38,586 nucleotides of DNA from a virus: positions 1 to 38,586 of the IMG/VR virus record IMGVR_UViG_3300037264_008951; one strand, written 5' to 3'. Position 1 is the stretch's first letter. Every line of letters begins with the position of its first letter. Shown piece by piece: positions 11,438-31,675 of this stretch. A model generated the notes under the pieces. It ran no database searches, had not been told where the DNA came from, and saw only the letters and a list, made by a program, of their open reading frames with translations. The position numbers and the translations under genes are program-made.

Positions 11438-11463
11438 TGTGCAAGCGCTCCAAAGGAGAAAAG

Positions 11464-14775: not shown

Positions 14776-15423
14776 ATGAATAAATTTAAAGCCTTAATAT
14801 TGACGGCTTGGGCGGTTGCCGTCTTCGGGGTGGTTGGATACGCGACACGCGGCGATATTATGGCACTGCATGGTGAAGGAGTGCTTCGCGGCATTGAAGT
14901 TTGGCGTATCACGTCCACAGGTGATATTAAAATCTCAAGCACTTCGTCTCATACGAATCTTGATTTCGATGCTGACAGTGGTGCGATCAGGCTTGGTGGC
15001 GCAGCGGCAACGTCTGTTTCCGCAGCCTTCCCGAGCGTACAGGTTCTTTTTGTCAACGGTGCGGCTGCTAGTATTCCACGAGGAAGCATTGTTGTCGCCA
15101 CAACAGCAATGACTTCTGACAAATTCCAAAATGGTTCAATTGTTGCGGCCATAGCTACGACGACTGTTTTGGGCGTGGCTTCAGCCGATGTGGCCAGTGG
15201 CGCAGTTGGTTATATGACTGTCGCTGGTTATGCCCTTGCGCTTACAACCGGAATTGTGAATATTGGAGATGTATTGATCACAACTTCCCCCACGGGCGGA
15301 CCCAAGGGCTATGCTTCAGTTACATTCTCTACGGTTACATGGAGCAATCCGCGCAGTGATTTTGGGATTGCTGTTGCGACAGGGAATCCGGCTGGTGGAC
15401 TTACCCTCATCAAGCTTCCGTAA
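14776..15423 (+). CDS. Signal-peptide-bearing beta protein, capsid-decoration-like, 215 aa
   Basis: The N-terminus MNKFKALILTAWAVAVFGVV is a clear Sec signal peptide (basic start, hydrophobic core, cleavage after GYA). The mature part resembles capsid cement/DUF2190-type barrels: IPRGSIVVATTAM, VLGVASADVASGAVGYMTVA, TTGIVNIGDVLITTSPTG. The frame is open three codons further upstream (GTG 14767), but the ATG with AAGGAAGG before it is preferred. A virion protein of this type would normally stay in the cytoplasm, so the signal sequence is notable. Confidence 0.65.
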   Translation: MNKFKALILTAWAVAVFGVVGYATRGDIMALHGEGVLRGIEVWRITSTGDIKISSTSSHTNLDFDADSGAIRLGGAAATSVSAAFPSVQVLFVNGAAASIPRGSIVVATTAMTSDKFQNGSIVAAIATTTVLGVASADVASGAVGYMTVAGYALALTTGIVNIGDVLITTSPTGGPKGYASVTFSTVTWSNPRSDFGIAVATGNPAGGLTLIKLP

Positions 15424-15429
15424 TGGTGC

Positions 15430-16182
15430 GTGTACGTGAAATGGCCTCTTTTGGAGTCGCCTCTTAAAAAGACTCTCGCCGCTCTTCTTTTCTTAGCGGC
15501 GGTTTCTTTTCCGTCAGATTCGTTCTGTCTCACGCTCAGTGAGCTTAGGACGCAAATCAGAATCCGTATTCTTGATACGAATTCCTCCCGCCAGCGTTAT
15601 ACCGACGCGCAGCTAAACGCACTTATCAATGAGACCCACAGAGACGTAACGAATTTTTCGTGGGTAGTCCGCAAAAGTGACGACTTTGAACTTTCGGCGG
15701 GAACAACGTTTTACAGTGTCCAGGCAGACCTATTGCATATCGACCGTGTAACCTGGCGGCGTCGCAACATTCCAGAGGCGACTTTTACGAGTCTTGACAG
15801 TGCCGCTGAGTTCGGGGATTGGGGACTTGCCGCAGGGCCACCGCAGTCTTATTTTCAAGATCCGAGCCAGCCGGACATGATTGGTTTCTATCCTTGGCCA
15901 AACAACTCATCTTCCACCGGTACAGTTGTGGTTTATTACGCAGCACAAGCCAACAGTCTTTCCAGTGATTCAGATGAGCCTTTCAGTGGCGAGGACCGCT
16001 ACCAGACTTGGGCGGATATTCTGATTTATGAGCCCTCCTACAAGATCATGTTGATTGAAGGGGAAGACACCAAAGCGGGGGAATATAAGGCGTACTCAGA
16101 AACACGGCTACGCAACATGATGGAGAAGTTGGGGCTTCGCCAAAATTATATTCCCGGTGTCGCAGGGCCCAATCCTCGATGA
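15430..16182 (+). CDS. Head-tail adaptor-like protein with N-terminal signal sequence, 250 aa
   Basis: Residues about 34-110 follow the pattern of the helical adaptor of short-tailed phages: LTLSELRTQIRIRILDTNSS, then RYTDAQLNALINETHRDVTN and FYSVQADLLHIDRVTWRRR. These adaptors form the ring between portal and nozzle. In front lies a 33-residue extension with KK, LAALLFLAAVSFPSDSFC, which reads as a cleavable signal peptide. The start is GTG (15430 or 15436) without a good ribosome site; the upstream gene ends in TAATG. The last 37 bases overlap the HNH gene on the other strand. Confidence 0.75.
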   Translation: MYVKWPLLESPLKKTLAALLFLAAVSFPSDSFCLTLSELRTQIRIRILDTNSSRQRYTDAQLNALINETHRDVTNFSWVVRKSDDFELSAGTTFYSVQADLLHIDRVTWRRRNIPEATFTSLDSAAEFGDWGLAAGPPQSYFQDPSQPDMIGFYPWPNNSSSTGTVVVYYAAQANSLSSDSDEPFSGEDRYQTWADILIYEPSYKIMLIEGEDTKAGEYKAYSETRLRNMMEKLGLRQNYIPGVAGPNPR

Positions 16183-16823
16183 GTTCTTCTATGACAAAAA
16201 GCGCAAAGTGGAATTACATTCATCCAATTTTCTCGATCATATCCCTTATGGTGATGCCAGTGATTAGCCATTCGTGGACAATAAGAGCAAGGCAGCGTTT
16301 TCGCTTTTTGAAGTTCTCCGGCAATAATTCGATTGTTCACATATTGCATTGCTTTTACTTTATGGCCATATTTTTGTCTGTATTTCTTCGCCGCCGCATG
16401 TTGGACATCACGGCCTTTTTTTGTGGAAACGTAATTTCTGAAGGCTCTCATTATCATGGCTCTGCCGCGATCAGTCTGAAGAAGATTTTTAAGTCTAATT
16501 CTTTGACATTTCTTGCAATTCCCCTGATAGCCTGTTTTGGAATCAAGTCTTCGGTTGAACTCCGTGGACATTTTCGTTTCTAGGCATTTTGAGCAAGAAA
16601 TAAGGAACGATTCCCTACCATGAGATTTATTAAATTCTTTAAGTTTTTTATATCTTCTCCTGGCGGAAGAATTATGCGCCTCTCTTCCGCGCGGGGTTTT
16701 TCTGTAAATAGCGTTTTTTATATTTGTGCAGAGTTTGCAGTGACATCTTGGTCTTCCGTTTTCCTTAATATAAAAAGCATCCCAAGGCTTAGTAATTCCA
16801 CACGCATCACATTTCTTTTCCAT
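16146..16823 (-). CDS. HNH endonuclease (free-standing, antisense in the structural operon), 225 aa
   Basis: Two zinc-finger-like pairs (CDACG...CKLC and CSKC...CKKC) precede a C-terminal HNH core: LPCSYCPRMANHWHHHKGYD, then NVIPLCAFCHRRTHRG, with the metal-binding Cys pairs and the HHH/H catalytic set present. HNH proteins nick or cut DNA and often spread as homing genes in phages. It runs against the structural operon and fills the space between adaptor and nozzle genes. Its last codons lie antisense to the adaptor gene end. It appears intact. Confidence 0.85.
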   Translation of the reverse strand: MEKKCDACGITKPWDAFYIKENGRPRCHCKLCTNIKNAIYRKTPRGREAHNSSARRRYKKLKEFNKSHGRESFLISCSKCLETKMSTEFNRRLDSKTGYQGNCKKCQRIRLKNLLQTDRGRAMIMRAFRNYVSTKKGRDVQHAAAKKYRQKYGHKVKAMQYVNNRIIAGELQKAKTLPCSYCPRMANHWHHHKGYDRENWMNVIPLCAFCHRRTHRGLGPATPGI

Positions 16824-16826
16824 TTA

Positions 16827-19730
16827 TTGTTGCTTATACCATTTTTTTCTTCATATGCCGAAGAAGCCAGTTTCTCGCTGAAGGATTTCAGTGGTGGCCT
16901 TTACTCCAATCAATCTGGAAACCGTATCCCGGACACGGCAGTCACCGCCTTGGAAAATTATGTTTCTGATGTTCCGGGTGAATTGATAGAGCGAAATGGA
17001 TACCAAAAACGCGACTCCACCATCCTCGGCGGCACAAAAGCGGTTACTGGCTTGTGGGAATTTGTTGACGCTTCAGCCAATCAATGGATCATTTCATTTT
17101 CTTCGCAATCGTATTATAGAAACACCCTCGGCAACACCCCAACGAAATTCGGCCAAAACGTCACAGTTACCACCGCCACGCCCGATTGTGCGGTTAATCT
17201 GGGAAGAATTTGGTGCGTGAATGGCGCGGATGCCCTGTGGTGGTTTGATGGCACCACGACAGGCACCGTTGCCTCCGCACCAAAAGGAACTTTGATCGAG
17301 TCGTGGCGAACTCGCTTGGTGATCGCCAACATATCGGGGGCACAGTCCACGGTTCGCTTCTCTGAAGACGGCGACGGCGAATCATGGACGTTGGGCGGAC
17401 TTGCCACGGACCCTTTTGCTATTCAGATCGGAGGCGCTAATGATGGATTCAACGTCACCTGCCTTTGGGGCTCCTACTTGGACAACTTCATCATCTCTCG
17501 AAAAAAGGACACATGGTACGTCTCTGGATTTGATCAGGAAGATGTAGAAACAAGAAATATCTCAAGAGAAATCGGATGTCTTCAGCCTGGGTCGATACGT
17601 GAGTTTGATGGTTCCCTCCTTTTTCTTTCTAACCGTGGCATGGAAGAAATGCGTGGAATAACTATAACCAACATCTCTGAGCCGATTCGCAACATCACCG
17701 ATGATCTAATAAAGAACACCGCCAGCCTGAAAAGCGTTACAGAAACAGATGGAGAAGACTGGAATGCGGGAACGCTTGTTCTAGATGTTTCCTCGTCGGT
17801 TTCATTGGGAGCCCTCGCTGCCAGAACAACGGATTGGACGCAAACAACAGCGGCGGATTTTGGTTCAGGCACGTTTGACAATACGGTTTTTTCTGACACC
17901 ATCACGACACCCGGATCGATTGTTACGACTTTTCCAGAAGGATTTTCCTCTTATCGAAATGGAACATCCGGAACAAAACATGTGTGGAATAATTTTCAAT
18001 CTGGGAATAATCCAATCAATCCAACCACAAGTATTTCTATCTCAACAAACACGCTCAAATTATTTAGCACAGCTAACAATAGTGATTCTAATTCTGGTGT
18101 TAACGTCTACACATCGACACCACTAGCTGATTTTCGCCAAGGAACAACTTACCACTTTAAAATAAGTGGTTTCGAGTGCTACAATCATTCCAGCAATTCG
18201 GAGCTACGGTTTCATCTAGTCATTTCTTCTCGACAACCAAACGGAACAACTACGATCCCTTTTAATTTTGGTAATTATTTTCGTCTTTCAATTGATAGAA
18301 ATGGTACGTGTGCGGCGGCTGGTTTAAAAATCAGGATATTGAACAATAGTTCCGACGGAGACGTTAGTTTCTCAAATGCGGTTTTCTCCGCCACGGGAAC
18401 TGCTGTTGATTTTTTCATTGCCACCACTACTTATCAATTGACCATCACGGGATCTACGCATACAACAGTTTGGGCACGTGGCAATCATACCTGGCCAGCG
18501 TGTTCTCCTTATGCGTATCTTATTTGGGCTAATCAAAGCGATATCCTCCCAGGCTCTGTCTTTATTGATGATTTCTCTGTCACGCCGCAAACCTTCACCT
18601 ACACAACATCCTCCTACGACACAGGCATTACTTCTCCTATTTGGGGAACATTCACTCGCAATGTCGCGGGGGAGGGGTCTATCCGGTACACGACCGAAGT
18701 AAGTGACGACAATGTTTCTTTTGATTCTGCCCTTACTGTTTCCCATAGCCAGAATGTCCCATCAGCACGTAAGCGCTTCATAAAACTAAAGGCTATTTTC
18801 CCAACCTATGTTTCCCCGGCAACGGCCACTGCGACCCAACTTGACGATTTCCGAATCACTGCCGGGTCTTCTGGCACATTTACTTCTCAAATTCTTTCTA
18901 TTGGGACATTGATTTCATCTTGGAGTACCTTTGTCGTAGATGAAACGAAGGTTGACGGGACCATCGTTTATCAATTCGGGTCCACGAACACCACCAGCGT
19001 GAGCGCCATCACCAATTGGCAAACCATTACTTCTGGTGCTATCCCCACGGTGGCCACAGGTTCCTACGCCGCTTTCCGTGCTTTTTTTGTGGTCAATTCA
19101 GGGACGGGATCTGCTTCTATTCAATCTGCCACGATCAACTGGAATGAAGGCGGCGCAACTCAATCTATGGCATCTTGGAATTTCGACCGCCGTTACTGGC
19201 TTGCTTACACCACCGCCACCGCGACAAGTGCGCGCAACGATAGAGTTCTCATTTATCAACGCAACAGAACTTGGACCATCTTTAAGCTCCCCATCGCTTC
19301 TTTTGCTACCTGGCGCGACAAGCTTTACTTTGGGGACTCCAATGACACCGGCTACGTCTACAACTTCGACATTGGCAATACCGATGACGGCAGCGCCATT
19401 ACCTCCATCTTACGCACAAAATCCTATGACCTCGGAGAATTCAACCGCGACAAATCTTTCCGCAGCGCCTATGTGAACTACCTCGGGAACACGGGGTTTA
19501 CCGGAAGCATCTCGCTGACCTACGACTTAGACAGAAACGGCGGGACTTACGTGCTGGGGACTTCAAATATGAATGAGTCTATGGGCCAGATTTCAGCGAA
19601 ATTTCCTTTTCCGGCAACGAATCCAATCGTTGGTAAGGAAATTCAGTACACGATCGTGAAATCGGGAACAGGGGATCGCCTCAAGCTTTACGACATCCGC
19701 ACGAACTTCTCCTTGGGAGAGTCAGACTGA
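16827..19730 (+). CDS. Tail nozzle/stopper-like beta-propeller protein with inserted carbohydrate-binding-like domain
   Basis: The conserved part starts FSLKDFSGGLYSNQSGNRIP and NYVSDVPGELIERNGYQKR, typical of podovirus nozzle/hub proteins, followed by propeller blades (GLWEFVDASANQWIISFSSQ, GDGESWTLGG) and a closing half (NDRVLIYQRNRTWTIFKLP onward). Between about 17930 and 18590 an Asn/Ser/Thr-rich jelly-roll segment ends GSVFIDDFSVT, like carbohydrate-binding modules; discoidin-like beta repeats follow. Just before the conserved part is LLLLIPFFSSYAEEA, the end of a signal peptide. The frame is open back to 16620, but that part lies antisense to the HNH gene. The true start (TTG 16827, ATG 16674 or other) is unresolved. 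Confidence 0.7.
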   Translation: MLLIPFFSSYAEEASFSLKDFSGGLYSNQSGNRIPDTAVTALENYVSDVPGELIERNGYQKRDSTILGGTKAVTGLWEFVDASANQWIISFSSQSYYRNTLGNTPTKFGQNVTVTTATPDCAVNLGRIWCVNGADALWWFDGTTTGTVASAPKGTLIESWRTRLVIANISGAQSTVRFSEDGDGESWTLGGLATDPFAIQIGGANDGFNVTCLWGSYLDNFIISRKKDTWYVSGFDQEDVETRNISREIGCLQPGSIREFDGSLLFLSNRGMEEMRGITITNISEPIRNITDDLIKNTASLKSVTETDGEDWNAGTLVLDVSSSVSLGALAARTTDWTQTTAADFGSGTFDNTVFSDTITTPGSIVTTFPEGFSSYRNGTSGTKHVWNNFQSGNNPINPTTSISISTNTLKLFSTANNSDSNSGVNVYTSTPLADFRQGTTYHFKISGFECYNHSSNSELRFHLVISSRQPNGTTTIPFNFGNYFRLSIDRNGTCAAAGLKIRILNNSSDGDVSFSNAVFSATGTAVDFFIATTTYQLTITGSTHTTVWARGNHTWPACSPYAYLIWANQSDILPGSVFIDDFSVTPQTFTYTTSSYDTGITSPIWGTFTRNVAGEGSIRYTTEVSDDNVSFDSALTVSHSQNVPSARKRFIKLKAIFPTYVSPATATATQLDDFRITAGSSGTFTSQILSIGTLISSWSTFVVDETKVDGTIVYQFGSTNTTSVSAITNWQTITSGAIPTVATGSYAAFRAFFVVNSGTGSASIQSATINWNEGGATQSMASWNFDRRYWLAYTTATATSARNDRVLIYQRNRTWTIFKLPIASFATWRDKLYFGDSNDTGYVYNFDIGNTDDGSAITSILRTKSYDLGEFNRDKSFRSAYVNYLGNTGFTGSISLTYDLDRNGGTYVLGTSNMNESMGQISAKFPFPATNPIVGKEIQYTIVKSGTGDRLKLYDIRTNFSLGESD

Positions 19731-19780
19731 TGACAGGAATGAAAACTCAGGCTAAGTTGATGATAAGGAGAACTTTGTAA
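19730..19780 (+). CDS. Possible 16-codon coupling ORF
   Basis: ATG overlaps the nozzle stop (TGATGA) and its TAA overlaps the ATG of the next gene (TAATG). The peptide MTGMKTQAKLMIRRTL is basic. The AAGGAG used by the next gene lies inside it. It could simply be a spacer that keeps ribosomes moving into the next gene. Confidence 0.25.
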   Translation: MTGMKTQAKLMIRRTL

Positions 19781-20997
19781 TGGCAATACGAATTCCGTCA
19801 ATTAATCTAATTAAGCGGCCAAGGCTTCCGCAAATGAATCCAGGTCCTAGTCCGACGGTGACGGCGGCACAAGTCCCACCGCCTATGCCGCAGATGCCGC
19901 AGTTTAACTCTGGCCCAACAGCACAGGCACCAGCGCCTATGCCGCAGTTTAATCAGTTCAGCTTCCAGAATCCCTACATGTATGGGGCCGGACCCGGCAT
20001 GACCCCTCCTTTTCGTATCAACGCCATGAACCAGCCGATCGCGGGCCAGCAAACTTTTCAGCAAGGGATTAACGCCGCTCAGCCACAACAGGGAATCACC
20101 CCAGAGCTTCAGCAAGTGCTGGACATTATTCGCCAGAACCAAAATTACGCAGGTCAGCAAGGAATGTCTCAAGCACAAGCTTTGGCTGGCAGGCGTGGAC
20201 TGGCGGGGTCAAGCATTGAGCAATTCGGGGTCCAGCAAGCCAATGAATCGGCCTCTCGCGCGGGTCAAGAGCAAATGGCGAACGTTCTTTTGCAGAATGT
20301 TCAACGCCAGCAGGCGCTTCAGGATCTTCAGACGAGAGGGTATTTTGAAAGAGCGGGACAAGAAGCGAGTCTTGGGGCTCAACTTGGCACCGCTGAGGGT
20401 CAATTGACCTCTGATGAGATCGCTTCTTTGCGGAATATCCAACTCGCCAATCAGCAGATGGAGCTTCAACGATCTCTGGGTGAGCGTGGGATTGACGCGC
20501 AAATGGCCAATATTGGTGCTCAACGAGACATTGCGGCAGATGAACAGCGCAACGCTTTAATCGGGACGGGAGCAAGTCTTTTTGCGCCGTATCTCATGGG
20601 GGGTCTTTTTGGGGCGCCCGGTGGTGGCGGAGGCGGCGGTGGGGGTCTTGGCGGTCTTTTTGGCGGTGGAGCTGCTGCGGCAGGAGTGGGCGGTGTCGCC
20701 AATACCAGTGCAGGGGCTCTCGGGGCTTCAAGCTCTCTATTCCCTGGCGGTCTCGGAACGGTTGGAACACCAGCCGCCGGTGGAATTCCTTTCTTGCCAA
20801 TTGCTGCGGGAATTGGTGGGGCGTTGGCTATGCGTAATGCTGTGGATAAAAACACTTTTGGGACAACTGCTTCCGGTTTCCTTGAGCCAATTTTTAAACC
20901 TGAACAAAGCATAAAGAAACTTGGAAAACTTATTAAAAATCCATCCCAAATAGGAAAAAAGGTCGGCAACGCCGTAAAAAACGTCTTTAGGTTTTAA
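19780..20997 (+). CDS. Probable internal/ejection protein, 405 aa
   Basis: The first 110 residues are Pro/Gln/Met/Asn-rich (for example PPPMPQMPQFNSGP). The centre is a Gln/Ala-rich helical segment (SSIEQFGVQQANESASRAGQ, then VQRQQALQDLQTRG). It is followed by a hydrophobic glycine-rich stretch (LFAPYLMGGLFGAPGGGG, codons 20580-20680), then further hydrophobic Ala/Gly segments and a basic tail ending KVGNAVKNVFRF. This mixture is usual for proteins carried in podovirus heads and ejected to form a channel. The ribosome site AAGGAG is 9 bases upstream. Confidence 0.55.
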   Translation: MAIRIPSINLIKRPRLPQMNPGPSPTVTAAQVPPPMPQMPQFNSGPTAQAPAPMPQFNQFSFQNPYMYGAGPGMTPPFRINAMNQPIAGQQTFQQGINAAQPQQGITPELQQVLDIIRQNQNYAGQQGMSQAQALAGRRGLAGSSIEQFGVQQANESASRAGQEQMANVLLQNVQRQQALQDLQTRGYFERAGQEASLGAQLGTAEGQLTSDEIASLRNIQLANQQMELQRSLGERGIDAQMANIGAQRDIAADEQRNALIGTGASLFAPYLMGGLFGAPGGGGGGGGGLGGLFGGGAAAAGVGGVANTSAGALGASSSLFPGGLGTVGTPAAGGIPFLPIAAGIGGALAMRNAVDKNTFGTTASGFLEPIFKPEQSIKKLGKLIKNPSQIGKKVGNAVKNVFRF

Positions 20998-21743
20998 TGT
21001 GCTTCATAGCAGCAGCCGTGACAAAAGATTCGGGGGTCCTTGCGTGCGACAGTGCGAACTACAACACGGAGACGGGGGAAATGAGCTTCGAGACGCCCAA
21101 GCTCTCGATCTGGAATGGGAAATATTTGGCGACTTTTGTTGGAACGAATACCTATTTCTCCCGCATCGACGAGAAGAAGTTTCTTCTGCCGATGGATCAG
21201 TTGTCACTTTACCTTCAGGGGTATCTTAAAGAAATGAAGCCAGACGTGGAAAATTTAATGAAAGAGTCGATTTCCGATCCAGACGAAAATAAACCATATT
21301 TCTGTTTGTATGTGATGGGATTGCATGGGAAAAGACCGACGTTGGCTCAGTTTAACAGTTTCCTTGATTTCGCTCCTAAGTACCTTTGGAACGATGGAAG
21401 TCAGCCTGTTAAGTTTGCGACTCTTCTGTATGGCGACGACTCGGTTCCTGGGAAGGCGCAGATATTTAAAGACAGCACAAAATTCATGGAAGCGGAAGCT
21501 GAAAAATACAGATTAAAACCAGGGACAGGAAATAGCGACGTGAATGTTTATCAGCATCAGTCATTGACCCCCGGACTTCTGGCGGAGATTCTGACACGCG
21601 GCATTTACAAGAAAGCGGACCTGGAAGAAACCATCGGCACCAAGAAAAAATACGCGGGCGGTTCGGTAAGCGCAGGCGTTGTTCATTCAGATGGCAGGAT
21701 TTATTCATTGTCAGGCATGGAGGTGATCAGTGGCAGTCGTTGA
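20997..21743 (+). CDS. Ntn-hydrolase / proteasome-subunit-like protein with Cys at position 2, 248 aa
   Basis: The TAATG overlap with the previous gene fixes the start, so residue 2 is Cys (MCFIAAAVTKDSGVLACDSA). This resembles the proteasome beta/HslV opening TT-x-VA...DG-VLAADSR, with the nucleophile expected to be exposed by Met removal. Next come FETPKLSIWNGKYLATFVGT (like the KI...GD...G-SG region) and a C-terminal SVSAGVVHSDGRIYSLSGME strand pair. Cys replaces the Thr of HslV, as in some Ntn amidohydrolases. It lies among ejection-protein genes. A role in virion maturation or in the injected cell is inference only. Confidence 0.6.
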   Translation: MCFIAAAVTKDSGVLACDSANYNTETGEMSFETPKLSIWNGKYLATFVGTNTYFSRIDEKKFLLPMDQLSLYLQGYLKEMKPDVENLMKESISDPDENKPYFCLYVMGLHGKRPTLAQFNSFLDFAPKYLWNDGSQPVKFATLLYGDDSVPGKAQIFKDSTKFMEAEAEKYRLKPGTGNSDVNVYQHQSLTPGLLAEILTRGIYKKADLEETIGTKKKYAGGSVSAGVVHSDGRIYSLSGMEVISGSR

Positions 21744-22761
21744 TCCTCAATTTAATTTGGCCCCGTCTTACGCGATGATCCAGCAGGCACTTCAGCAGCG
21801 GGCGGCCATAGAAGGTCAAAGTGGCGCTTCTAGTCCCCTGGCGACCATTAACGCCATCGCTTCTCCGATTGCCGAGCAGCAGCAGTTGGCGAGCGCCCAG
21901 CAGTTTGAAATGGACAAGATTCGGCAGAAGTCGTTGATCGACATGGCGGAGAAGAAGGCGACTGAAGAACCAACCGAATTGGTAACGAAAGACGGGATTC
22001 TCGAATTCTTGGACGCCATGGATTCCAGGGAAGGGAACGAAAATCTCTTTGATGATTTGATTGGCAAGAGGATGACTGAAAAAGAAGCCAGGGCTGAGGC
22101 GACGCGACGACTTTCCATGAAGGCTGAAAAAGAGAAACAGGCGAATGAGATTGATTTAAAAAAACAACGGCAGGCAGAACTTAAAGAAGAAAGGGACAGA
22201 AAATTTGAAGAACGGCGCGGAGAAGAGAAAGAAAGGATCATAAATAAATTTAATCAATCCAATGGCGTTGTTCGCATAAACCAATCGATAGATGCCGCAA
22301 AAACAATTCGTGAATTGGCCAACAGTGGAAATCCTATTGCGGCATCGGCTATTCCCACATATATGGCGCGGGCAAGCGGAGAAGTGGGAAATTTATCTGA
22401 ACCAGACAAAGCTCCCTTTGGCGGTAGTAGGGCTATTTTGCGACGTATGGAGGCAGCATTTGAAGAAGCTTCTTCTGGTGGCATGTCGGATGCCAACCGT
22501 CAGTTCATTAACGAACTTTCAGATTTGATGGAACAAACAGCCAATGCCAACAAAAACGAGCGAGCCAGAGAGCTTTCTTCCCAATATGGAAAATCTTCAG
22601 ATTATCTCGACAAAAAACAGATTTACGAGTTTCTTCGTCCAGAAGGTACAGGCTTGCGCCCTGGCCATACCATAAAGCAAATGAAAAGTAAAAAAGATGG
22701 GAAAATACGTGAAATTGAATTTGACAGGGCCGGAAAACCAGTGAGGATAATTGAAGAATAA
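21730..22761 (+). CDS. Probable internal virion protein, coiled coil, 343 aa
   Basis: Starts GTG at 21730 directly after GGAGGTGATCA, a near-perfect match to the 16S anti-Shine-Dalgarno, inside the end of the previous gene. The sequence is charged and helical throughout (EKEKQANEIDLKKQRQAELK, then EERDRKFEERRGEEKERI). It has no membrane segment. Position between two ejection-type proteins suggests it travels in the head with them. Confidence 0.55.
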   Translation: MAVVDPQFNLAPSYAMIQQALQQRAAIEGQSGASSPLATINAIASPIAEQQQLASAQQFEMDKIRQKSLIDMAEKKATEEPTELVTKDGILEFLDAMDSREGNENLFDDLIGKRMTEKEARAEATRRLSMKAEKEKQANEIDLKKQRQAELKEERDRKFEERRGEEKERIINKFNQSNGVVRINQSIDAAKTIRELANSGNPIAASAIPTYMARASGEVGNLSEPDKAPFGGSRAILRRMEAAFEEASSGGMSDANRQFINELSDLMEQTANANKNERARELSSQYGKSSDYLDKKQIYEFLRPEGTGLRPGHTIKQMKSKKDGKIREIEFDRAGKPVRIIEE

Positions 22762-24473
22762 TGGCTATTGATTTAGATGAATTTGAGGACGTTGACTTGA
22801 ATGATTTCGAGGAAGTGACCCCCACGGGCCTTCCGTCTATCAACGAGCCGACCACGGTGACACCGCCCAATCAACCCGAGGGGATTCAGGTGCCAAAGCC
22901 TGTGCAATCAATTGCTCAACAAATTCTTGCTCCTACCCGCGCAACACGTGGTGTTGCCGTTGGCATAAAGAATTTTCTGGAAGGTGTTTCCCCGGCGGGG
23001 GCAACGTCTTTCATGTCTGGACTTCCTGGATCGCAACTTACACTGCCAGATTTGATTCAACTTAAAAACAATGTCGATAAAACCGTCGAACGCGCCACTG
23101 CTGCTTATCAGCCAGGATTTGAGCCGCAGCCGGGCGAAGAAATCCCTGCTTTCCTTGGAGAAGCCGCTGGCGTTGCCGGAATGCTGGCACCTCTAGCGGC
23201 TGCTGCTCCTGCCGTGGCTGGCGCGGTTGGAGCAACTTCTCCACTTGCCGTTGCCGGAGTCACAGGGGCCGTTGATGCGGCGACCGGCATGGGCCTTACC
23301 GCTTTACAGCAGACTTCCGAGAAAGGGACCGTCTCGCCAGGTGAAGTTGGATTGGTTGGCGCAATTTCCGGGGCGATTCCGTTTGGAAAGCCAATTTATC
23401 AAGGCATAAAAGGCGCTGCCACGAAACTCCTGCCAGAAGTATTGGCGTGGAGCCAAAAAGCGCCTAAAAGATCAGTGAAAATACGCCTTGATGATCCAGA
23501 AATTATGAAGGTTGTTCAGGGAACAGAAGAATCATTAAAGGCGGCTGTTGATGATGCAACGACAGCGTTAAACCAGATTCGTGAAGAAGCTGGGACACAA
23601 CTTCGCAAGGTGAAGGTTGATTTGGGTCTTGAAGTCGCCCCAGAAGAAGAAATTGCGCAGTTGGCAACCAGGGGATCTCCCGAAAAAATTGCACGAGAAG
23701 AAATAAAACAAATGGGTGGTGTCGAAATTGGTGTTGGTGATGATTTTGCGCAGGAAGTTGCCCAAGCTTACGAGGCAGCAAAAAAAGTACCTGAATCGCA
23801 ACGCCTTAAATACCTTTACAACTTAAAGAATCAAATCAACGAAGCTGTCACATTCCGACCTGGCGTTGTTAAGCAGATTGGTCCAAAATCAGAGGGTCGG
23901 TTGAAAACCATCGCTGGAAAAGCTGACAAGGACATGCTGGAACTTCCTGGCGGCGATCGCCTGAAGGAAGGTAACGAACAATTCCACAAAGCCGCTGGAC
24001 TTTATGATGAGCTGCAAAAGAAGCTCGAAACTCCCGGAATGGCAGAAGATTCTTTAGCGAAAATTTTTCGCGGTGATTTAAGCGTTATTACCGAAGGTAA
24101 AAATAGGGAAGTCCAGGCACTTTTGGATAAATTAGACGAGATGGCCGGGAAACCTGTAACTAAACAAATTTGGCGTGAAATGACAGTTAAACATTTCAAA
24201 AAAGGATTAGGTCGTGGTCTCGGATCATTTTTGACTGGTCAGGTTGGTCTTGGAATAGCAGGAAAGGCAGCATTCGCAAGCAATCCAATTCTTGCCGCTG
24301 GTGCATTGGCTACCACTGCACCCCTTGTTTCACCTCGCATAGCTTCTATGTCTATTGCTGCTGGGCAAAAAGCTTCCCCTTATATTAACCGCTTCCTTTC
24401 CACAATTTCCAACCCCAAATTACAAAGCGCGATTATTTCAGCTATCGCCACTCCAAAGGAGAGAAAAAAATGA
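22761..24473 (+). CDS. Probable ejection/internal protein with membrane-active segments, 570 aa
   Basis: The N-terminus is acidic (MAIDLDEFEDVDLNDFEEVT). Hydrophobic Ala/Gly segments lie at about 130-175 (GMLAPLAAAAPAVAGAVGAT) and 485-540 (GIAGKAAFASNPILAAGALA), with a long charged helical region between. This is the layout of large podovirus ejection proteins that cross the envelope ahead of the DNA. TAATG couples it to the gene before and ATGA to the one after. No lytic transglycosylase motif was recognised. Confidence 0.55.
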   Translation: MAIDLDEFEDVDLNDFEEVTPTGLPSINEPTTVTPPNQPEGIQVPKPVQSIAQQILAPTRATRGVAVGIKNFLEGVSPAGATSFMSGLPGSQLTLPDLIQLKNNVDKTVERATAAYQPGFEPQPGEEIPAFLGEAAGVAGMLAPLAAAAPAVAGAVGATSPLAVAGVTGAVDAATGMGLTALQQTSEKGTVSPGEVGLVGAISGAIPFGKPIYQGIKGAATKLLPEVLAWSQKAPKRSVKIRLDDPEIMKVVQGTEESLKAAVDDATTALNQIREEAGTQLRKVKVDLGLEVAPEEEIAQLATRGSPEKIAREEIKQMGGVEIGVGDDFAQEVAQAYEAAKKVPESQRLKYLYNLKNQINEAVTFRPGVVKQIGPKSEGRLKTIAGKADKDMLELPGGDRLKEGNEQFHKAAGLYDELQKKLETPGMAEDSLAKIFRGDLSVITEGKNREVQALLDKLDEMAGKPVTKQIWREMTVKHFKKGLGRGLGSFLTGQVGLGIAGKAAFASNPILAAGALATTAPLVSPRIASMSIAAGQKASPYINRFLSTISNPKLQSAIISAIATPKERKK

Positions 24474-25114
24474 AAGTTTTAAAACGTCTTTTAATTACGG
24501 CCGCTATCCTCGCCGTCCCGCTTCTCGTGAAAGCAGAAGGCCCCTACGAAAGCATGTCGCGGGATAAAACGATGGTTGTTCATTCAACAAGAACGATTGC
24601 TGTTGGTACCGGGGTGGCATTTACCACGCATTCAATTCTTGTTGATCTTTCCAGCGTAACCACTTTTAATCACGACGAAACAGGTGTTATTCATATCTCC
24701 CGCATTGAGCTTTACGTTGATAAATTGGCGGCTTCTACTGGGACAGTGAAAGTGGGTGTTGTGAACAACGTCAATATCGCGACCGGCAGCGTTACCTTCT
24801 TCGGGCGTCTTTCCTTCGAGAAGAATGTCTCCAATACGCAGCCAACGCTTGTTGTGAACATCGAGGAATCGCTTGTACGTACGGATGCCGTTGCTCCAGC
24901 GCCAGGGGGTGCGAACGTCGGGGCGACGCCGTTCATTTATTCTAATGACAACTTAAACGAGTCGACTCTTTTCCAAACAGACATTAATTTGCCGACTCCA
25001 AATGGAAATATTCCTCCTGGATTGGGCGATATCATTCTTTATGCTGCAAACAACGATGTCACGAACACTATTAATGTGATTGCGACTATTTATTATCACA
25101 CGCATCAGAGGTAA
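24470..25114 (+). CDS. Signal-peptide-bearing beta protein, probable tail/appendage component, 214 aa
   Basis: MKVLKRLLITAAILAVPLLV followed by KA/EG is a textbook signal peptide (KxxKR start, cleavage after VKA). The mature protein is Thr/Val/Asn-rich beta structure (IHISRIELYVDKLAAS, VTFFGRLSFEK, LGDIILYAANN). It overlaps the upstream gene by ATGA. It probably belongs to the fibre set that follows. The family is not recognised. Confidence 0.65.
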   Translation: MKVLKRLLITAAILAVPLLVKAEGPYESMSRDKTMVVHSTRTIAVGTGVAFTTHSILVDLSSVTTFNHDETGVIHISRIELYVDKLAASTGTVKVGVVNNVNIATGSVTFFGRLSFEKNVSNTQPTLVVNIEESLVRTDAVAPAPGGANVGATPFIYSNDNLNESTLFQTDINLPTPNGNIPPGLGDIILYAANNDVTNTINVIATIYYHTHQR

Positions 25115-25117
25115 CGA

Positions 25118-26209
25118 TTGCGCAGATGGATTCTTTGCTCGTCATTTCTTTTAACTGCTTCTCTCTCCTGGGGGAAGCCGCGTAATCCTTTACCCCAAAC
25201 GCCGGACCAGATCTGGCAAAACGACCTTGACCTTCTCCAAGACATAAACACGGGTCTTGAAGAAGTCTCTGTTTCTTCCTCCAACCTTCCGTCGGGATCT
25301 ACGCAATACATCCAAAACAGAAACACCCTCCAATCCGGCGCTACGTTTTATGTGTCAAGCGGGACGGTTGCTGGTGATTTTCGAGTGACAGGAAATGTGT
25401 ATTTTGGAACGGGTACAGCGCGGGCACTTATTAATGATATGCCGAAGGTTCAAGTTGAGGGAATTGATTTTGATGGTTCAGCGATTGCATCAATAAGGAA
25501 CCAAGACAACGCCGGGGGAGCTTCTTTGGTTTTATCGAAAACAAGAGGAACGACCGTTGGCTCAGTCACAGCCGTGACAAACAACGATATTTTGGGAGTA
25601 ATTTATTTTTCTGGGGCGGATGGAACCAGTGTGGTCCAAGGGGCGAGGATTCAGGTGCTTGTCAATGGAACCGTTGGAACAAACTCCATGCCTTCTGAGA
25701 TGTTTTTACAAACAGCTCCCGCTGGTTCAACAACCCCGATATCGAACCTCATCGTTAATCCAGGCGGGGAAATTACACGTCCCATGCACCCATCCTTCTT
25801 GGTCACTTCGTCTTCTGATTCAATTAATGCCACAGGTGACGGGACCGAGGCGACCGTTACTTTTCATGATGAAATTTTTGATCAATCTGGGGCGATTACA
25901 AATTCAACGTTTACTGCTTCCATCACGAGCAAATACACTTTTTCCGTTGGAGTGAGAATTGAAAACACAATCGCTTCTCACGACCGATACATAGTTTCTT
26001 TAAGAACAAGCAATCGAGATTACAACGTTGAGTTGTCAACAATAGGCGCGAGGGATTTTTATTCACACCATATTTCTGTCCTCTGCGACATGGACGCGAA
26101 CGACACGGCTTTCGTCACGGCAATTGTTACCAACAGCACGAAAGTTGTGGAAATAAGTGGTGCGGTCGGAGATAGGATCACGTGGTTTTCTGGAAATCTT
26201 CAAGATTGA
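25118..26209 (+). CDS. Tail fibre/appendage protein with signal peptide and C1q-like tip, 363 aa
   Basis: TTG start after AGAGGTAAC. The N-terminus LRRWILCSSFLLTASLSWG is a signal peptide. The middle (SLVLSKTRGTTVGSVTAVTN, then ILGVIYFSGADGTSVVQGAR) matches the shaft-type sequence commonly found in phage fibres. The C-terminal 130 residues (EATVTFHDEIFDQSG, SKYTFSVGVRIEN) resemble the trimeric C1q/TNF jelly roll used as receptor-binding tips. The role is probably host recognition. Confidence 0.7.
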   Translation: MRRWILCSSFLLTASLSWGKPRNPLPQTPDQIWQNDLDLLQDINTGLEEVSVSSSNLPSGSTQYIQNRNTLQSGATFYVSSGTVAGDFRVTGNVYFGTGTARALINDMPKVQVEGIDFDGSAIASIRNQDNAGGASLVLSKTRGTTVGSVTAVTNNDILGVIYFSGADGTSVVQGARIQVLVNGTVGTNSMPSEMFLQTAPAGSTTPISNLIVNPGGEITRPMHPSFLVTSSSDSINATGDGTEATVTFHDEIFDQSGAITNSTFTASITSKYTFSVGVRIENTIASHDRYIVSLRTSNRDYNVELSTIGARDFYSHHISVLCDMDANDTAFVTAIVTNSTKVVEISGAVGDRITWFSGNLQD

Positions 26210-26217
26210 GGGTGATT

Positions 26218-26517
26218 ATGAAAAAGCTAATTATGTTTTTTGCACCATGCCTCATGGCAAGTATTGTGTTTGCCGAATGGTGCACTTCTGAAATCCCCAA
26301 AGAGGACATCGCTATCGTTGAGACTTCTGTGATGGATGCTGAGGAATGGATTCGTACCGCTTGGAACAAAAAGGTTGCTGATCGGAAAGAAGCAATCATA
26401 AAGGAAGAAATTCAGGATTCGCTTCAAAATGATCGCGCTATTCCAGCGAAAAAAGAAGATATTTTGAAAAACGCGGTTAAACGACTTGGAAAAAGAAAAG
26501 AAAGAGAAGCGAAATGA
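26218..26517 (+). CDS. Exported helical protein, 99 aa
   Basis: MKKLIMFFAPCLMASIVFAE is a signal peptide with cleavage after VFA. The mature part is charged helix (EDIAIVETSVMDAEEWIRTA, then KKVADRKEAIIKEEIQDSLQ), possibly a coiled coil. The frame is open upstream to 26182, but the ATG with GAGGGTGA before it is chosen. The stop overlaps the next ATG. It may be a chaperone or a fibre accessory; unknown. Confidence 0.65.
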   Translation: MKKLIMFFAPCLMASIVFAEWCTSEIPKEDIAIVETSVMDAEEWIRTAWNKKVADRKEAIIKEEIQDSLQNDRAIPAKKEDILKNAVKRLGKRKEREAK

Positions 26518-26753
26518 GTGTTATTGACCATCATCTAATCCGTTTCTCTCCGACCAAGATCCCTGAGCAGCGCTTTGACCCGGATGGTAATGGAAATTAT
26601 ATTTATCAAGGCTGGTCTTGGGAACAGAACACGCTCACGAGCACGAGTTCCTGGATGATCGCCAAACTGACCTACAATGGATCGAATCAATTGATAAGGA
26701 TTCAGGTTAAGAGCAATGTTATTTGGGATAACCGTGCTGCCCTATCTTGGTAA
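26514..26753 (+). CDS. Hypothetical beta protein, 79 aa
   Basis: Starts MSVIDHHLIRFSPTKIPEQR. The stretch YIYQGWSWEQNTLTSTSSWM looks like beta structure, and the C-terminus is [19 protein letters not shown]. It overlaps the neighbours at both ends (4 and 38 bases). Its place in the fibre operon suggests a small virion component or a fibre chaperone. Confidence 0.6.
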   Translation: MSVIDHHLIRFSPTKIPEQRFDPDGNGNYIYQGWSWEQNTLTSTSSWMIAKLTYNGSNQLIRIQVKSNVIWDNRAALSW

Positions 26754-27369
26754 GCTAAAAACATCTGAATTCTGGCTTACGGTTCTTGGCTGCGGATTCC
26801 TGTGTTACGACGCCTTCCTGTCTACTCGTATTGCCACAAACCACGCCATCGGAATTTTGATCGTGTTGTCCGCCTACATGATAGCCCGCTCCTTCTTCAA
26901 AAGATCACGCACGTCATCAATTGGCTTTCTTACCAGTGAATTCTATTTTCTGATCGCCGGGGTGGTTGTGTTTTTTCTTTTACACAAGAGGGGCCAATTG
27001 GAGAGCGGGCACTTCATTTTGTTTTCCGCGATTCTTATCGGTGCTTACATTTTGTCGCGCGGGAACACTAAAAGACTTGAGGTGCGCGCGATGCCATTCC
27101 TCTTGTTTTTTCTTCTCATCTCCCCAGCCAATGCTGAAGAATATAAATACAGATTTAATCCATTTACAAACAGGATGGACATCGTAGTCAATATATCATC
27201 CACAAGCGTCGGTTCTCTTATTGACGTATCAACAGCCACCATCATCGATGGTCAATGCTTGGTTTGGTCATCAGCAAGCAGTAGTTTTCAGCCAGGGTCG
27301 TGTGCTGCCACGACAACCGGGGCGCTCTTACTTGAAGACGGCGGAATTTTGCTTCTCGAGGACCAATGA
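26716..27369 (+). CDS. Duplicated holin-like membrane domain fused to a signal-peptide protein, 217 aa
   Basis: Residues 14-64 and 70-121 are two copies of one pattern: [12 protein letters not shown]...[13 protein letters not shown] and [12 protein letters not shown]...[14 protein letters not shown], each with two hydrophobic helices, like small phage holins with TSEF near the membrane entry. At residue 126 a new signal sequence begins ([15 protein letters not shown]), followed by [16 protein letters not shown] and a short Ser/Thr/Leu domain. Either this is one membrane-anchored protein or the C-terminal part is also made separately from 27091. Confidence 0.6.
27091..27369 (+). CDS. Possible internal-start product: exported 92-aa protein
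   Basis: An in-frame ATG at 27091 has GAGGT 7 bases before it and opens directly into a signal peptide ([15 protein letters not shown], cleavage after ANA). Translation here would release the C-terminal domain as an independent exported protein. Its stop overlaps the start of the large fibre gene (ATGA). Confidence 0.4.
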
Positions 27370-29402
27370 AAAAACTACTTTATTTTCTTCTATTCGTTCC
27401 GTCTGTTGCTTTTGCTGATTCTAAGCTCACTGCCTTGACGGAGCTGTCCAGTGCAACAGCAGACGATCTTCTCTATGTTGTCGACCAGCCCGGCGGAACA
27501 CCCGGTTCCAGAAAAATAATATTTAACAATCTTCAGAAATCTATCACGGTCTTGGGTGCAACAACGACCATCGCTATCCCATCAGTCGGGAGGGGCGTTC
27601 TCCAAACAATTGGGACCAGTTCAACGGTCGTGACCCAGGCTGTGTCTTTATCGAGTCAGGTTATTGGGAATTTGCCGGTAACGAACCTCAATTCAGGGAC
27701 TTCGGCTTCGCCAACGACATTCTGGCGCGGGGATGCGACATGGGCCGCGCCCGCTTCTGGTGGTTCTTCCGCCTTGGCTGTTTCGACGGCAGGCGTTATC
27801 GTTTCAAGCCCGACTTCAAACATAAATTTCGTTTCACATTTTAATGGAAGCCTAGACGGGACAACCACCGCCCAAATCACATTAAACCCATCCACCGTCA
27901 CCTTGCTTGGCGCAACGATTGAAGTCGCTGAGATATCAAACGTGAATGCAGGTACAAATTTAACCGCCGACTTGGAAGAAGAGGCGCATGCAACTGAGCA
28001 TGAGAATGCGGGAGCCGATGAGATAGCCGTAACGGGGCTCTCCGGTCTACTGGCAGACCCGCAGACGATTGTTGTTTCCACAAACAGCCTTGTGGTTAAT
28101 ACGAGCACGGGGATTAATTTTGTAGCTGGCTCAAATGTAACAATTTCTGGAACTGCGACCAGTAGCAACACGATCATCACGATTTCCGCAACAGCCGGAA
28201 GTGGTGCGCCATGGCCCATCGCCGTTGCCACCAACAGCGTCGTCATTTCAAGCCCTACGTTTAAGATTAACTTCATGCCTCCATTCCAAGGCACTCTCGA
28301 CGGGGCCACGACAGCGCAAATCACGTTAAATACTTCTAGCGTAACTCTCTTGGGACCAACAATCGAGGTTGCTGAAATATCCAACGTAAATGCGGGAACC
28401 GACTTAACGGCTGATCTCGAAGAGGAAGCTCATGCTTCAGAGCACGAAAACAGCGGAGCAGATGAAATCAGCGTTACCGGCTTATCGGGTCTATTGGCAG
28501 ATCCGCAAGAGATTCGGTTCAGCACGGGCGGGGTTGTGGTGAGCGTCAGCACGGGACTCAATTTCACCGGGACGGCTCCTATTGTTTTAACAGGAGCGGA
28601 ATCTGGGAATCGTGGAGATCTGACCATCGCTATCACTCAAAACGCCGGAACGGATGTTACCGCCGATCTTGAAGAAGAGGCCCACGTGGCAGAACACCAA
28701 AACGGCGGCGCGGATGAAATAAACCTAGCTGGGCTGGATGGCCTCTTGGCTGACCCACAAAAAATCGTTGTCTCAACAGGCGGGATTATCGTCAACACCA
28801 GCACTGGGATCAATTTTGTGGCTGGCGCGAATATTTCAATTTCTGGAATAGCCACAACAAGCAACACAGTGATAACAATTACCGGGACTGGAAGTGGAAG
28901 CGGTGTAAGTGTTTATCCGGCAACAGCAGCGGCACGGTTTGATTTCGGAATGAATGTCTCATCGGTCAATGTTTCGACACAAAACGTAGCCGTGAGCTTG
29001 ACGTATGATTCGATTAATGTTCGCCTCAAGCTCTCCACGAATACCCATGTTGACGGCATCTTAACGAGTTCAGGGAATGCTTCTGGTTTTTCAACTATCG
29101 ACCGTGGTCTTACGGTCAATGCTGGGAACTATTCGACGAGTGGGTCGTCTTCGGCTTTTACGGTTAAAGGAGCCGCTGGGATTAACTTGCTCTTGGCGGA
29201 CCCGATTGCAAACACCATAACCTCCGCCATCACCACGAGCGTCGGATGGACGCCCGTATCCGCTGCCGATCAAGCATGTAACACGACATGCACCTCTGCT
29301 TGCGCTTTTGGGCTTGGTTTAACGGCGGGGAACATAACGGGAAGTATCTTGGCGTGCACAGACGCGACTGCAGATGTGTGCCTGTGCCTGGGGCCTACCT
29401 AA
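27366..29402 (+). CDS. Tail fibre with signal peptide, three repeats and Cys-rich tip, 678 aa
   Basis: [18 protein letters not shown] is a signal peptide (cleavage after AFA). The mature start [20 protein letters not shown] is the usual opening of many phage fibre proteins. Three copies of a block with [16 protein letters not shown] and GADEI...GL.GLLADPQ lie at about 27942-28070, 28386-28511 and 28641-28765. The last 50 residues carry eight Cys ([29 protein letters not shown]), suited to disulfide bonding outside the cytoplasm. It probably forms a trimeric shaft that binds the host. Confidence 0.75.
27942..28765 (+). repeat. Three-copy protein-coding repeat in the fibre gene
   Basis: Each copy codes for about 42 residues with EEEAHAxEHExxGADEI and LLADPQ. 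Copies 1 and 2 belong to a larger duplicated unit of roughly 440-450 bases beginning near 27785 and 28230. The third is shorter and more diverged. Confidence 0.75.
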
Positions 29403-29729
29403 GTGAATTTAGGAAAATGGGCACCCATCTTCTTCGCTCTCTGTACCGGAGTAAGCGATACGGCGTATCGAACACATGTGTTTGGAATAATTCATCAGGC
29501 TTTGACTGTCGATGATTTGAATGAACAAAATAATTATGCGTTTCGTTTTATTAGAAAATCGATACGCTATTCAAAATTAGGCGCCAATGAAAACATAGCG
29601 GCACGCTGTTTTTTGATTGAACTCTATTGTGAAGAAAGGGGGATTCCCATTAGCCGAGCCTCTATTTATCGCCATGGTATGAAACATTGGATTGATGAAA
29701 ATTTTCCAGGAGAAGGCATTGAACCGTAA
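29403..29729 (+). CDS. Hypothetical protein, 108 aa
   Basis: A GTG-start frame beginning directly after the fibre stop (VNLGKWAPIFFALCTGVSDT). It continues as a mostly helical protein with FRFIRKSIRYSKLGANENIA and a C-terminal HWIDENFPGEG. The ribosome site is weak. It could be a fibre assembly protein by location. The family is not recognised. Confidence 0.55.
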   Translation: MNLGKWAPIFFALCTGVSDTAYRTHVFGIIHQALTVDDLNEQNNYAFRFIRKSIRYSKLGANENIAARCFLIELYCEERGIPISRASIYRHGMKHWIDENFPGEGIEP

Positions 29730-30864
29730 AAACATACTCATGCTTTTGTTTTTGCTTTCGACGCCGAATGTTTTTTCGGAGATGCAATCATTGCGCGGCC
29801 AGCAGATGATAGGCATCCCAGATTTCCTTGTCAGTGCCGTATCTGGATTTGCATGGGCTGCGCCTGTTTTAGATGCTGCCGGAGAGATAGCGGCGGCGGT
29901 TTTCAGATTCCCAAACGATGCGACCGTGAGACGTGTCGGAATACGAACGGCCAATATAACGACCGGCGCAACAATCGACATGCGGCTGGAATCAATTGAT
30001 CCAGATACTGGGAATCCGTCTGGAAATCTCTACTGCACCAATTCAAGCGGAACACTTACCATCGCCAGCACAAATGACAGTGTTTGGGTAATGTCTCAGG
30101 CTTTTGTAGCAGATTGTAATGTTGTGCGTGGGACATTGGGTGCCGTTGTGATTCTCCATCGGGGTGTGTTTAATGGCCAAATAGCAACAACCCTGAACGA
30201 AGATTTGCAAAATTTCCCGTTTACAGTTTCTTCTAATTCAGCGTCTGGATATGTGCGATTGGAACGATCCCCTACTTTTGCGCTTGAATACAGTGATTTC
30301 AGTTATGAGCCTATTGCCGGGATAGCCCCCATATCTGCATTTTCCAACACAAATTTTAACCACACCGATGCGACCAATACACGAGGACTAAGATTTCGAC
30401 TTCCTTTTAACGCTCGAATCGTTGGGGCGTGGTTATTTACGCTAGGCGCGGCGGAACAGAACATTAAACTTTTTGATTCGGACGGTGCTTCTGTCATTGC
30501 TTCCGTGAAGCTATCAACAGCATCCATGTTTAATGATGCGTCAACCAGATTGGTATTTGCCACCTTTACTTCATCAGCAACACTTCTCGCAGACCAATGG
30601 TATCGACTTGTTCAATCGCCAACAGGTCCGTCCGATGTGGCTGCTTGGACAATCAGCGTTACTTCGCCAACCAACATGGCAACGCTTCCATTCGGGGATA
30701 ATTTTCATTTAACAACGGCAGCTAATCCAACGCAAGAGTCGAGTTGGACAAACACGACAACCGTTCAGAGGCCGCTGATCGGTCCTATTATCGACGGCAT
30801 TGATACCTCTGGTGGATCGAATATATTTTATGACTCAACGCTTTATGATGCGGTGATTCAATAA
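29719..30864 (+). CDS. Signal-peptide-bearing beta protein, probable tail appendage, 381 aa
   Basis: The preferred start is TTG at 29719 with AGGAG 6 bases upstream; TTG 29692 and ATG 29695 are in-frame alternatives without such a site. LNRKNILMLLFLLSTPNVFS is a signal peptide. The mature protein holds two beta jelly-roll-like halves (VRRVGIRTANITTGATIDMR; LRFRLPFNARIVGAWLFTLG). It ends IFYDSTLYDAVIQ. TAATG couples it to the endolysin gene. Probably a capping or receptor-binding appendage. Confidence 0.65.
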   Translation: MNRKNILMLLFLLSTPNVFSEMQSLRGQQMIGIPDFLVSAVSGFAWAAPVLDAAGEIAAAVFRFPNDATVRRVGIRTANITTGATIDMRLESIDPDTGNPSGNLYCTNSSGTLTIASTNDSVWVMSQAFVADCNVVRGTLGAVVILHRGVFNGQIATTLNEDLQNFPFTVSSNSASGYVRLERSPTFALEYSDFSYEPIAGIAPISAFSNTNFNHTDATNTRGLRFRLPFNARIVGAWLFTLGAAEQNIKLFDSDGASVIASVKLSTASMFNDASTRLVFATFTSSATLLADQWYRLVQSPTGPSDVAAWTISVTSPTNMATLPFGDNFHLTTAANPTQESSWTNTTTVQRPLIGPIIDGIDTSGGSNIFYDSTLYDAVIQ

Positions 30865-31319
30865 TGGATGAGAAAATAAAACTTCATCGGCCCGTGGCTG
30901 CTGAATTCAAGATATCCAGTCCCTATGGGCCGAGAATTCATCCGGTTACTGGGGAGACCGGGAAAATGCACTACGGTGTTGACTTTGCAACACCATCAGG
31001 GACTCCCATTGTAGCGGCCCTAAGCGGCATCATCGCGCGCATCGGCTGGGAAGATGAGAATGATCACGGCAAAGGATTCGGTCTGCGTGTTTGGCAGCGC
31101 TGTGGAGATATTTTTATTTGCTACGCGCATCTTTCGCAGGTGGAAGTTTACGCCGGGTACAACGTTACGGCTGGCGAAAGGATTGGGTTAACAGGAAATA
31201 CGGGGGCTTCTTCGGGAAGTCATTGCCATGTCGAAGTGAGAAAAGGGGGGATTGCTGGATTTAAAGGTGTCGAGTTCGAGTTCATTGAAGATATTGAACG
31301 ACCACTGGATGCTGCATGA
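30864..31319 (+). CDS. M23 (LytM-type) endopeptidase, probable endolysin, 151 aa
   Basis: Shows the full zinc-peptidase set: H36-x3-D40 in MHYGVDFA, catalytic H89 in CYAHLS, and H120-x-H122 in GSHCHVEV, with SSPYGPRIHPVTG before. M23 enzymes cut peptide cross-links in peptidoglycan. It has no signal peptide, so a holin would be needed for access. It opens the lysis cassette and is coupled to both neighbours (TAATG, ATGA). Confidence 0.9.
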   Translation: MDEKIKLHRPVAAEFKISSPYGPRIHPVTGETGKMHYGVDFATPSGTPIVAALSGIIARIGWEDENDHGKGFGLRVWQRCGDIFICYAHLSQVEVYAGYNVTAGERIGLTGNTGASSGSHCHVEVRKGGIAGFKGVEFEFIEDIERPLDAA

Positions 31320-31675
31320 GTGAAAAAACCACTCATGATTTAGAGATTGAGATTCTTGAGCTTAAGGGAAAATTTGAGCTTTTGAATCAAGTAGTCCTCC
31401 AACAAAAGGAGAGATTGGACAACAGCTCTGCCACTGGTTTTAAGGCGTGGGAAGCTTTTCAGAGGATGGAAGGCGAGATTGGGGGGCTCAAGGTCAAAGT
31501 TGATAATCTTGGGAAGGATTTGGCCATCACGGACGAGAAAGCAAAAGACGCTGGAAAATGGGCGAAGGATGCGCATATCAAATACGATGGATTTAACACA
31601 AAGATCCTCTGGGCGATTTTGCTTTTGTTTATTGGAATCATTATTAAATTCCTAGCAACGGGGAGACTTGTTTGA
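31316..31675 (+). CDS. Coiled-coil protein with C-terminal membrane anchor, 119 aa
   Basis: Residues 7-80 form a coiled coil (LEIEILELKGKFELLNQVVL, GGLKVKVDNLGKDLAITDEK). Residues about 95-113 are one membrane helix (ILWAILLLFIGIIIKFLA). This is the layout of XhlA-like lysis helper proteins and also of some inner-membrane spanins turned around. It lies between endolysin and cyclase, with ATGA and TTGA overlaps. A lysis role is likely. Confidence 0.65.
   Translation: MSEKTTHDLEIEILELKGKFELLNQVVLQQKERLDNSSATGFKAWEAFQRMEGEIGGLKVKVDNLGKDLAITDEKAKDAGKWAKDAHIKYDGFNTKILWAILLLFIGIIIKFLATGRLV

Follow-up and report, generated by a model that had tools for sequence, protein, structure and literature searches.

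We describe a clade of podovirus-type tailed phages whose virion, on balance, appears to be made in two cell compartments and joined when the holin opens the inner membrane. The split across that membrane is itself probable: filled heads would be cytoplasmic, the whole tail would reach the periplasm via Sec, and the two would be joined at the breach or at a docking site. Export of the outer parts through Sec is strongly indicated by their predicted N-termini, because they carry Sec/signal-peptidase-I-type signals, and we infer that these signals would be cleaved and that joining would be timed by the holin. The clade set comprises seven contigs: the window (the whole stretch of DNA analysed, an IMG/VR virus record of 38,586 bases) and the metagenomic relatives G022 (37,118 bases), G025 (41,209 bases), G024, G023, G026 and G027. 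Large terminase, portal and major head protein are all encoded in the window, which also has the podovirus-type features of an SU10-family adaptor followed by a stabilisation/nozzle protein.

Signals on the products of the window

Signals were called with a home-made scorer for tripartite signals (cut-off 30) that demands small residues at the predicted cleavage site. All of 11 well-known E. coli signals scored above 30, and among 75 annotated proteins of P22, SU10 and ctKR88 the only positives were Rz, Rz1 and one holin, none being structural; the chance level, taken from shuffled N-termini of the outer genes, is 2% positives. Seven of the ten outer or tail products of the window were positive (14776, 15430, 24470, 25118, 26218, 27366 and 29719), and the terminase, portal, scaffold, major capsid protein, ejection proteins and M23 peptidase were without a signal. 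A preliminary description of the window had proposed both halves of this pattern, the Sec-type signals on tail and fibre products and their absence from the capsid, scaffold, portal, terminase, ejection and M23 proteins; both are borne out, with the six relatives in agreement. The features are as follows.

5445..6866, plus strand: terminase large subunit (PHROG 979, 3e-53); no signal
8618..10816, plus strand: portal (PHROG 1216, 1e-13), 50-54% identical in relatives; no signal
11437..12324, plus strand: scaffold-like protein (position, composition), kept in all seven contigs; no signal
13344..14246, plus strand: major capsid protein (PHROG 371, 1e-21), 62-63% identical in three relatives; no signal
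14776..15423, plus strand: outer protein, first gene past the head block; signal 14776-14844 (..VVGYA; MNKFKALILTAWAVAVFGVVGYA), score 44.1
15430..16182, plus strand: SU10-type head-tail adaptor (Pfam PF24175, 1.2e-16; phrog_399); signal about 15430-15522 (KKTLAALLFLAAVSFPSDS)
16146..16823, minus strand: HNH-endonuclease-like gene (Cys/His zinc motifs, reading frame, translation)
16827..19730, plus strand: tail nozzle (stabilisation-type) protein; damaged signal remnant 16806-16859 (ITFLFHLLLLIPFFSSYA)
19780..24473, plus strand: ejection-type block (19780, 20997, 21730, 22761; position, and order kept in G022 and G025); no signals
24470..25114, plus strand: outer protein, predicted beta-sandwich; signal 24470-24535 (..LLVKA; MKVLKRLLITAAILAVPLLVKA), score 50.0
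25118..26209, plus strand: tail fibre (PHROG tail fibre, 1.5e-13; cyanophage tail-fibre matches); signal 25118-25174
26218..26517, plus strand: small protein; signal 26218-26274 (..IVFA; MKKLIMFFAPCLMASIVFA), score 40.7
26514..26753, plus strand: small outer-block protein; no signal, likewise in its orthologue L064:7264
27091..27369, plus strand: small protein, hydrophobic N-terminus to ANA; borderline
27366..29402, plus strand: tail fibre; signal 27366-27416 (..VAFA), score 39.1, fibre N-terminal domain next
29719..30864, plus strand: outer protein; signal 29719-29778 (..NVFS; MNRKNILMLLFLLSTPNVFS), score 36.7
30864..31319, plus strand: M23 peptidase, endolysin candidate (Pfam PF01551, 1.9e-21); no signal
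31316..31675, plus strand: lysis-cassette protein with hydrophobic C-terminus (membrane anchor), from sequence and a weak XhlA match

The tripartite layout is clear in 14776, 15430, 24470, 26218, 27366 and 29719 (the last with the Shine-Dalgarno (SD) motif AGGAG 6 nt upstream of its TTG start), and 25118 is weaker yet positive (MRRWILCSSFLLTASLSWG, score 30.7 against the cut-off of 30). The signal ending in ANA that had been assigned to 27091 stands in part: the hydrophobic N-terminus exists, but no basic residue precedes the core and the scorer is negative at this start, whereas the orthologue in G022 (L064:7502) is positive. The AlphaFold2 model of 24470 is middling (pLDDT 63), with weak jelly-roll matches.

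For the nozzle, the hydrophobic core and SSYA site described earlier exist, but the start and basic n-region have been broken by the inserted HNH-like gene, which lies between adaptor and nozzle, overlaps both ends and removes the nozzle start region. With TTG 16827, the best start, all that is left is a stub of 11 residues that has no basic n-region and is negative with the scorer; a longer in-frame start, ATG 16620, is also present, the nozzle frame being open antisense through the HNH gene. This gene, named from its motifs, has no Pfam match above the cut-off and is absent from this place in G022 and G025, whose nozzles, 49% and 42% identical to that of the window, both have intact signals. 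The C-terminal domain of the window nozzle is homologous to the 'phage stabilization protein' of ctKR88 (hhalign probability 94.6%, E 7e-8); direct profile comparison with SU10 gp17 and P22 gp10 was not significant, and structure prediction was uninformative (pLDDT 32).

Across the clade, the scorer finds a basic n-region, a hydrophobic core and small residues at -3/-1 in 40 genes, which score like the signals of OmpA, PhoA and DsbA. This likeness argues against reading the hydrophobic N-termini as propeptides or virion plugs that are removed by another protease or retained in the particle. Such processing has a parallel in P22, whose record annotates N-terminal processing and whose gp7 has a 20-residue propeptide cut by the host protease OpdA, but here one tripartite layout recurs on unrelated adaptor, nozzle, fibre, LamG and beta-sandwich proteins, and we consider propeptides quite improbable.

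Three reasons for the signals had been offered, of which the best fit is tail assembly in or at the periplasm or membrane. Envelope tethering is a poor fit: the signals are short (mean 21 residues), small residues stand at the site, and inspection by eye of the adaptor, nozzle and fibres revealed no lipobox. Disulfide formation fails as a general reason, as 24 of the 40 exported proteins have no Cys or only one, and the fibre tip, credited earlier with eight Cys, has six and is not conserved. Exported proteins with at least two Cys do have mostly even numbers (15 even, one odd), but so do the inner proteins (14 even, five odd).

Several other frames of the window deserve mention. At 26716-27369 a single open frame joins several membrane-like hydrophobic segments, the segment ending in ANA and a conserved domain, the last part alone being conserved in G022. 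The family-less protein 20997-21743 among the ejection genes, found at the same place in G022 and G025, has an N-terminus that by eye suggests an Ntn hydrolase. A guanylate-cyclase-like gene adjoins the lysis genes (31672-32277; Pfam PF00211, 22.5 bits, cut-off 21.9), and at 36107-37110 (minus strand) two neighbouring frames resemble halves of a glycosyltransferase, one of them matching PF13692 just below the cut-off.

Conservation and probable gain of the signals

Scans with the terminase, capsid or adaptor alone returned distant loci or none, the portal scan yielded three contigs (52% identity), and capsid and portal alignments added three further relatives; the relatives' portals are about 50% identical to that of the window. 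The contigs, being metagenomic, may be incomplete, and four of the six relatives are partial, stopping short of the adaptor and nozzle genes. In every relative, genes located past the head block bear signals, and whichever of the terminase, portal, scaffold, capsid and ejection genes the contig contains are free of them. Over the seven contigs, 40 of 45 outer or tail genes bear signals against 0 of 59 packaging, head and ejection genes (Fisher 1e-23), a figure that is partly circular because some outer genes were classed by position. An independent core gives the same picture: signals are present on the adaptors (3/3), on the nozzles (2/3, the third being damaged by the HNH-like gene), on the LamG proteins (2/2), on the fibres 25118 and 27366 with their orthologues (4/4), and on L064:13251 (virion structural PHROG, 5e-38), and the fibre, LamG and virion-structural PHROG matches sit behind signals. 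In a neutral ORF set, 39 of 199 frames of the clade (19.6%) are signal-bearing against 22 of 764 (2.9%) on 50 other viral contigs.

Signals are borne by orthologues of 14776 (G022, G025, G026, G023), 24470 (G022, G025, G027), 25118 (L068:16022), 26218 (L068:16934) and 27366 (G022), and by both adaptor orthologues, 47% and 38% identical to that of the window. The signal sequences diverge and their character is retained, even where the gene order of G025 differs, so the extensions proposed for the window are kept in homologues of the clade. In the terminase of G022 (L053:5555-7843) the frame is 762 aa long, about 290 more than in the relatives, by an apparent in-frame insertion.

The possibility that the signals are a start-site artefact or chance hydrophobic N-termini has some footing in the TTG or GTG starts of some genes and in the few genes that lack a clear SD. 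An SD nevertheless precedes the signal in most signal-bearing genes, 37 of 40 have no SD-bearing start within 60 residues past the signal and in the other three it lies well inside the mature protein, shuffled N-termini rarely score (the 2% given above), and adaptor, nozzle and main fibres have intact signals in relatives. The possibility is thus extremely improbable and was rejected, and the suspicion that the true starts lie downstream of the hydrophobic segments does not hold.

The signals appear instead to be additions in front of ordinary virion domains. The three adaptors match SU10_adaptor (PF24175) with 62 (window), 76 (G022) and 71 bits (G025; cut-off 27), the profile beginning at residues 35, 24 and 31 behind predicted signals of 31, 22 and 21 residues, i.e., the domain starts 2-10 residues past the predicted cleavage site at profile position 2-6 (in the window, residue 35 is position 2). 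Likewise, the fibre domain directly behind the signal of 27366 matches proteins of Melnitz-3, HTVC008M and PSS2 at their residue 4-5. No signal was found on nine outgroup SU10-family adaptors (SU10, three viral contigs and five contigs of Elusimicrobiota genomes) or on four outgroup nozzle-type proteins. Because these outgroup proteins are without signals, while the clade's domains start just after the predicted sites, the signals were most likely gained in this clade and retained even as the sequences diverged to 40-50% identity and the gene order of G025 was altered.

Comparison with known systems agrees with this. The SU10/P22 podoviruses (Kuravirus SU10, P22; PF24175 adaptor, gp10-type nozzle) share with the clade the SU10-family adaptor domain and the arrangement of terminase, portal, scaffold, capsid, adaptor, nozzle, ejection and fibre genes in one block, but their tail proteins start without signals. 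Podovirus ctKR88 (MW202524), whose portal is the nearest match in the phage collection (22% identity, 2e-10) and which has the nozzle homologue mentioned above, differs in having signals on 0 of 17 structural-region proteins tested; that nozzle homologue, too, is signal-less. Five SU10-adaptor contigs of Elusimicrobiota genomes (G342, G245, G193, G235, G334), whose presumed host phylum is that of the clade, have five adaptors that are all signal-less, as are the nozzle-type neighbours checked in G342 and G334; a habit common to phages of the host phylum was therefore rejected.

On unrelated viral contigs, linked to the clade by terminase only, one or two signal-bearing family-less proteins lie beside the terminase or portal (L005:11486-13228; L008:7338-8234 and 9188-10933; L009:14178-15893 and 15881-16633; L019:4787-5353), and the phage adaptor of L009 is without a signal. 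These genes are possibly a wider, milder form of the clade's habit.

Proposed assembly in two compartments

In known podoviruses, the adaptor ring, nozzle and fibres are added after DNA packaging. The division of signals in the clade follows this order, the post-packaging parts being the signal-bearing ones. This suggests separate cell compartments for the building of head and tail, and the signals argue against tail parts being made and put together in the cytoplasm. In the scheme that we propose, the procapsid, scaffold, portal, terminase and ejection proteins, being without signals, would yield a DNA-filled head in the cytoplasm, where other tailed phages fill theirs too, and the adaptor ring, nozzle, fibres and surface proteins would leave through the host Sec translocon, lose their signals and fold in the periplasm. 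Since the M23 endolysin also lacks a signal, a holin would be needed for lysis; once it breaches the inner membrane, the tail parts in the periplasm would mix with the filled heads, the adaptor binding the portal first, followed by nozzle and fibres. Holin holes can reach several hundred nm (PMC12162936), wide enough for a podovirus head. Against the scheme stand the damaged nozzle signal of the window, the absence of a signal from 26514 and a holin without confident identification.

The adaptor and nozzle of P22 stabilise the packaged DNA, so heads awaiting an exported adaptor would need another closure. A small conserved signal-less protein encoded after the portal (10797-11156) is, as a guess from its position, a candidate DNA retainer. 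Selective reasons that would fit the scheme are evasion of cytoplasmic proteases or immune sensors, access to periplasmic chaperones, and the blocking of premature joining.

The main rival is docking at the membrane before lysis, in which the tail is built from the exported parts, either at the inner membrane or spanning it, and filled heads attach to it through the portal from the cytoplasmic side, perhaps with membrane wrapping or extrusion. It predicts the same signal pattern and would let an exported adaptor reach the portal without waiting for lysis, but nothing recognisable as a phage-encoded channel or as a tail part spanning the membrane was found, and the signal-less M23 endolysin with its membrane-anchored neighbour points to ordinary lysis; we regard docking as unlikely. 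Virion proteins of the Inoviridae do enter the Sec pathway via cleavable signals. These phages differ, however, in being filamentous and extruded without a terminase-filled capsid, and homology to the clade was not recognised; the proteins searched included no recognisable inovirus coat or extrusion protein, and the window encodes a terminase-portal-capsid virion and lysis genes. Filamentous phages use host secretion (PMC4823517). For tailed phages, no precedent of an exported tail was found in the literature searched, coverage of which was partial.

Host and biological meaning

GATFYVSSGTV, a motif that fibre 25118 of the window shares with a fibre of G022, points to Elusimicrobiota as host or gene source. 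When searched as a degenerate DNA pattern over species genomes it was found in eight stretches: the titles of seven name Elusimicrobia, and the last, from a bacterium, has neighbour genes that are closely similar; fibre 25118 is about 50% identical to L079 (E 1e-8). From these fibre sequences, Elusimicrobiota are probably the host of the clade. When the first half of the window was compared with 341 Elusimicrobiota genomes, the CRISPR-spacer-like matches proved to be noise, none of them lying near an array. The portal was absent from these genomes, and no prophage of the clade was seen. Elusimicrobia genomes (L078-L085) encode large secreted proteins that share GATFYVSSGTV with the phage fibres, which suggests that these fibres and the surface proteins of the host have exchanged sequences.

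The occurrence of the motif in chromosomal, mostly signal-bearing Elusimicrobia proteins also favours another view, namely that export serves only the fibres and surface proteins, for display on the infected host (exclusion, adhesion), these having been taken with their signals from secreted Elusimicrobiota proteins and the signals of adaptor and nozzle being a by-product. The single signal-bearing family-less genes by head genes on some unrelated viral contigs are in line with this; yet adaptor and nozzle have signals in every relative that reaches them, bar the HNH-disrupted nozzle, despite 40-50% identity, and display is improbable.

Assembly of tailed phages is taught as cytoplasmic, with tail parts closing the portal right after packaging. 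If assembly in two compartments is true, a clade that exports all its post-packaging parts breaks this rule and raises the question of how the DNA is kept inside before the adaptor reaches the head. It would also provide a route by which tail proteins avoid cytoplasmic proteases and immune sensors or use periplasmic chaperones, and the clade, whose members are probable phages of the poorly studied Elusimicrobiota, would then be a natural control for the order in which heads and tails are put together.
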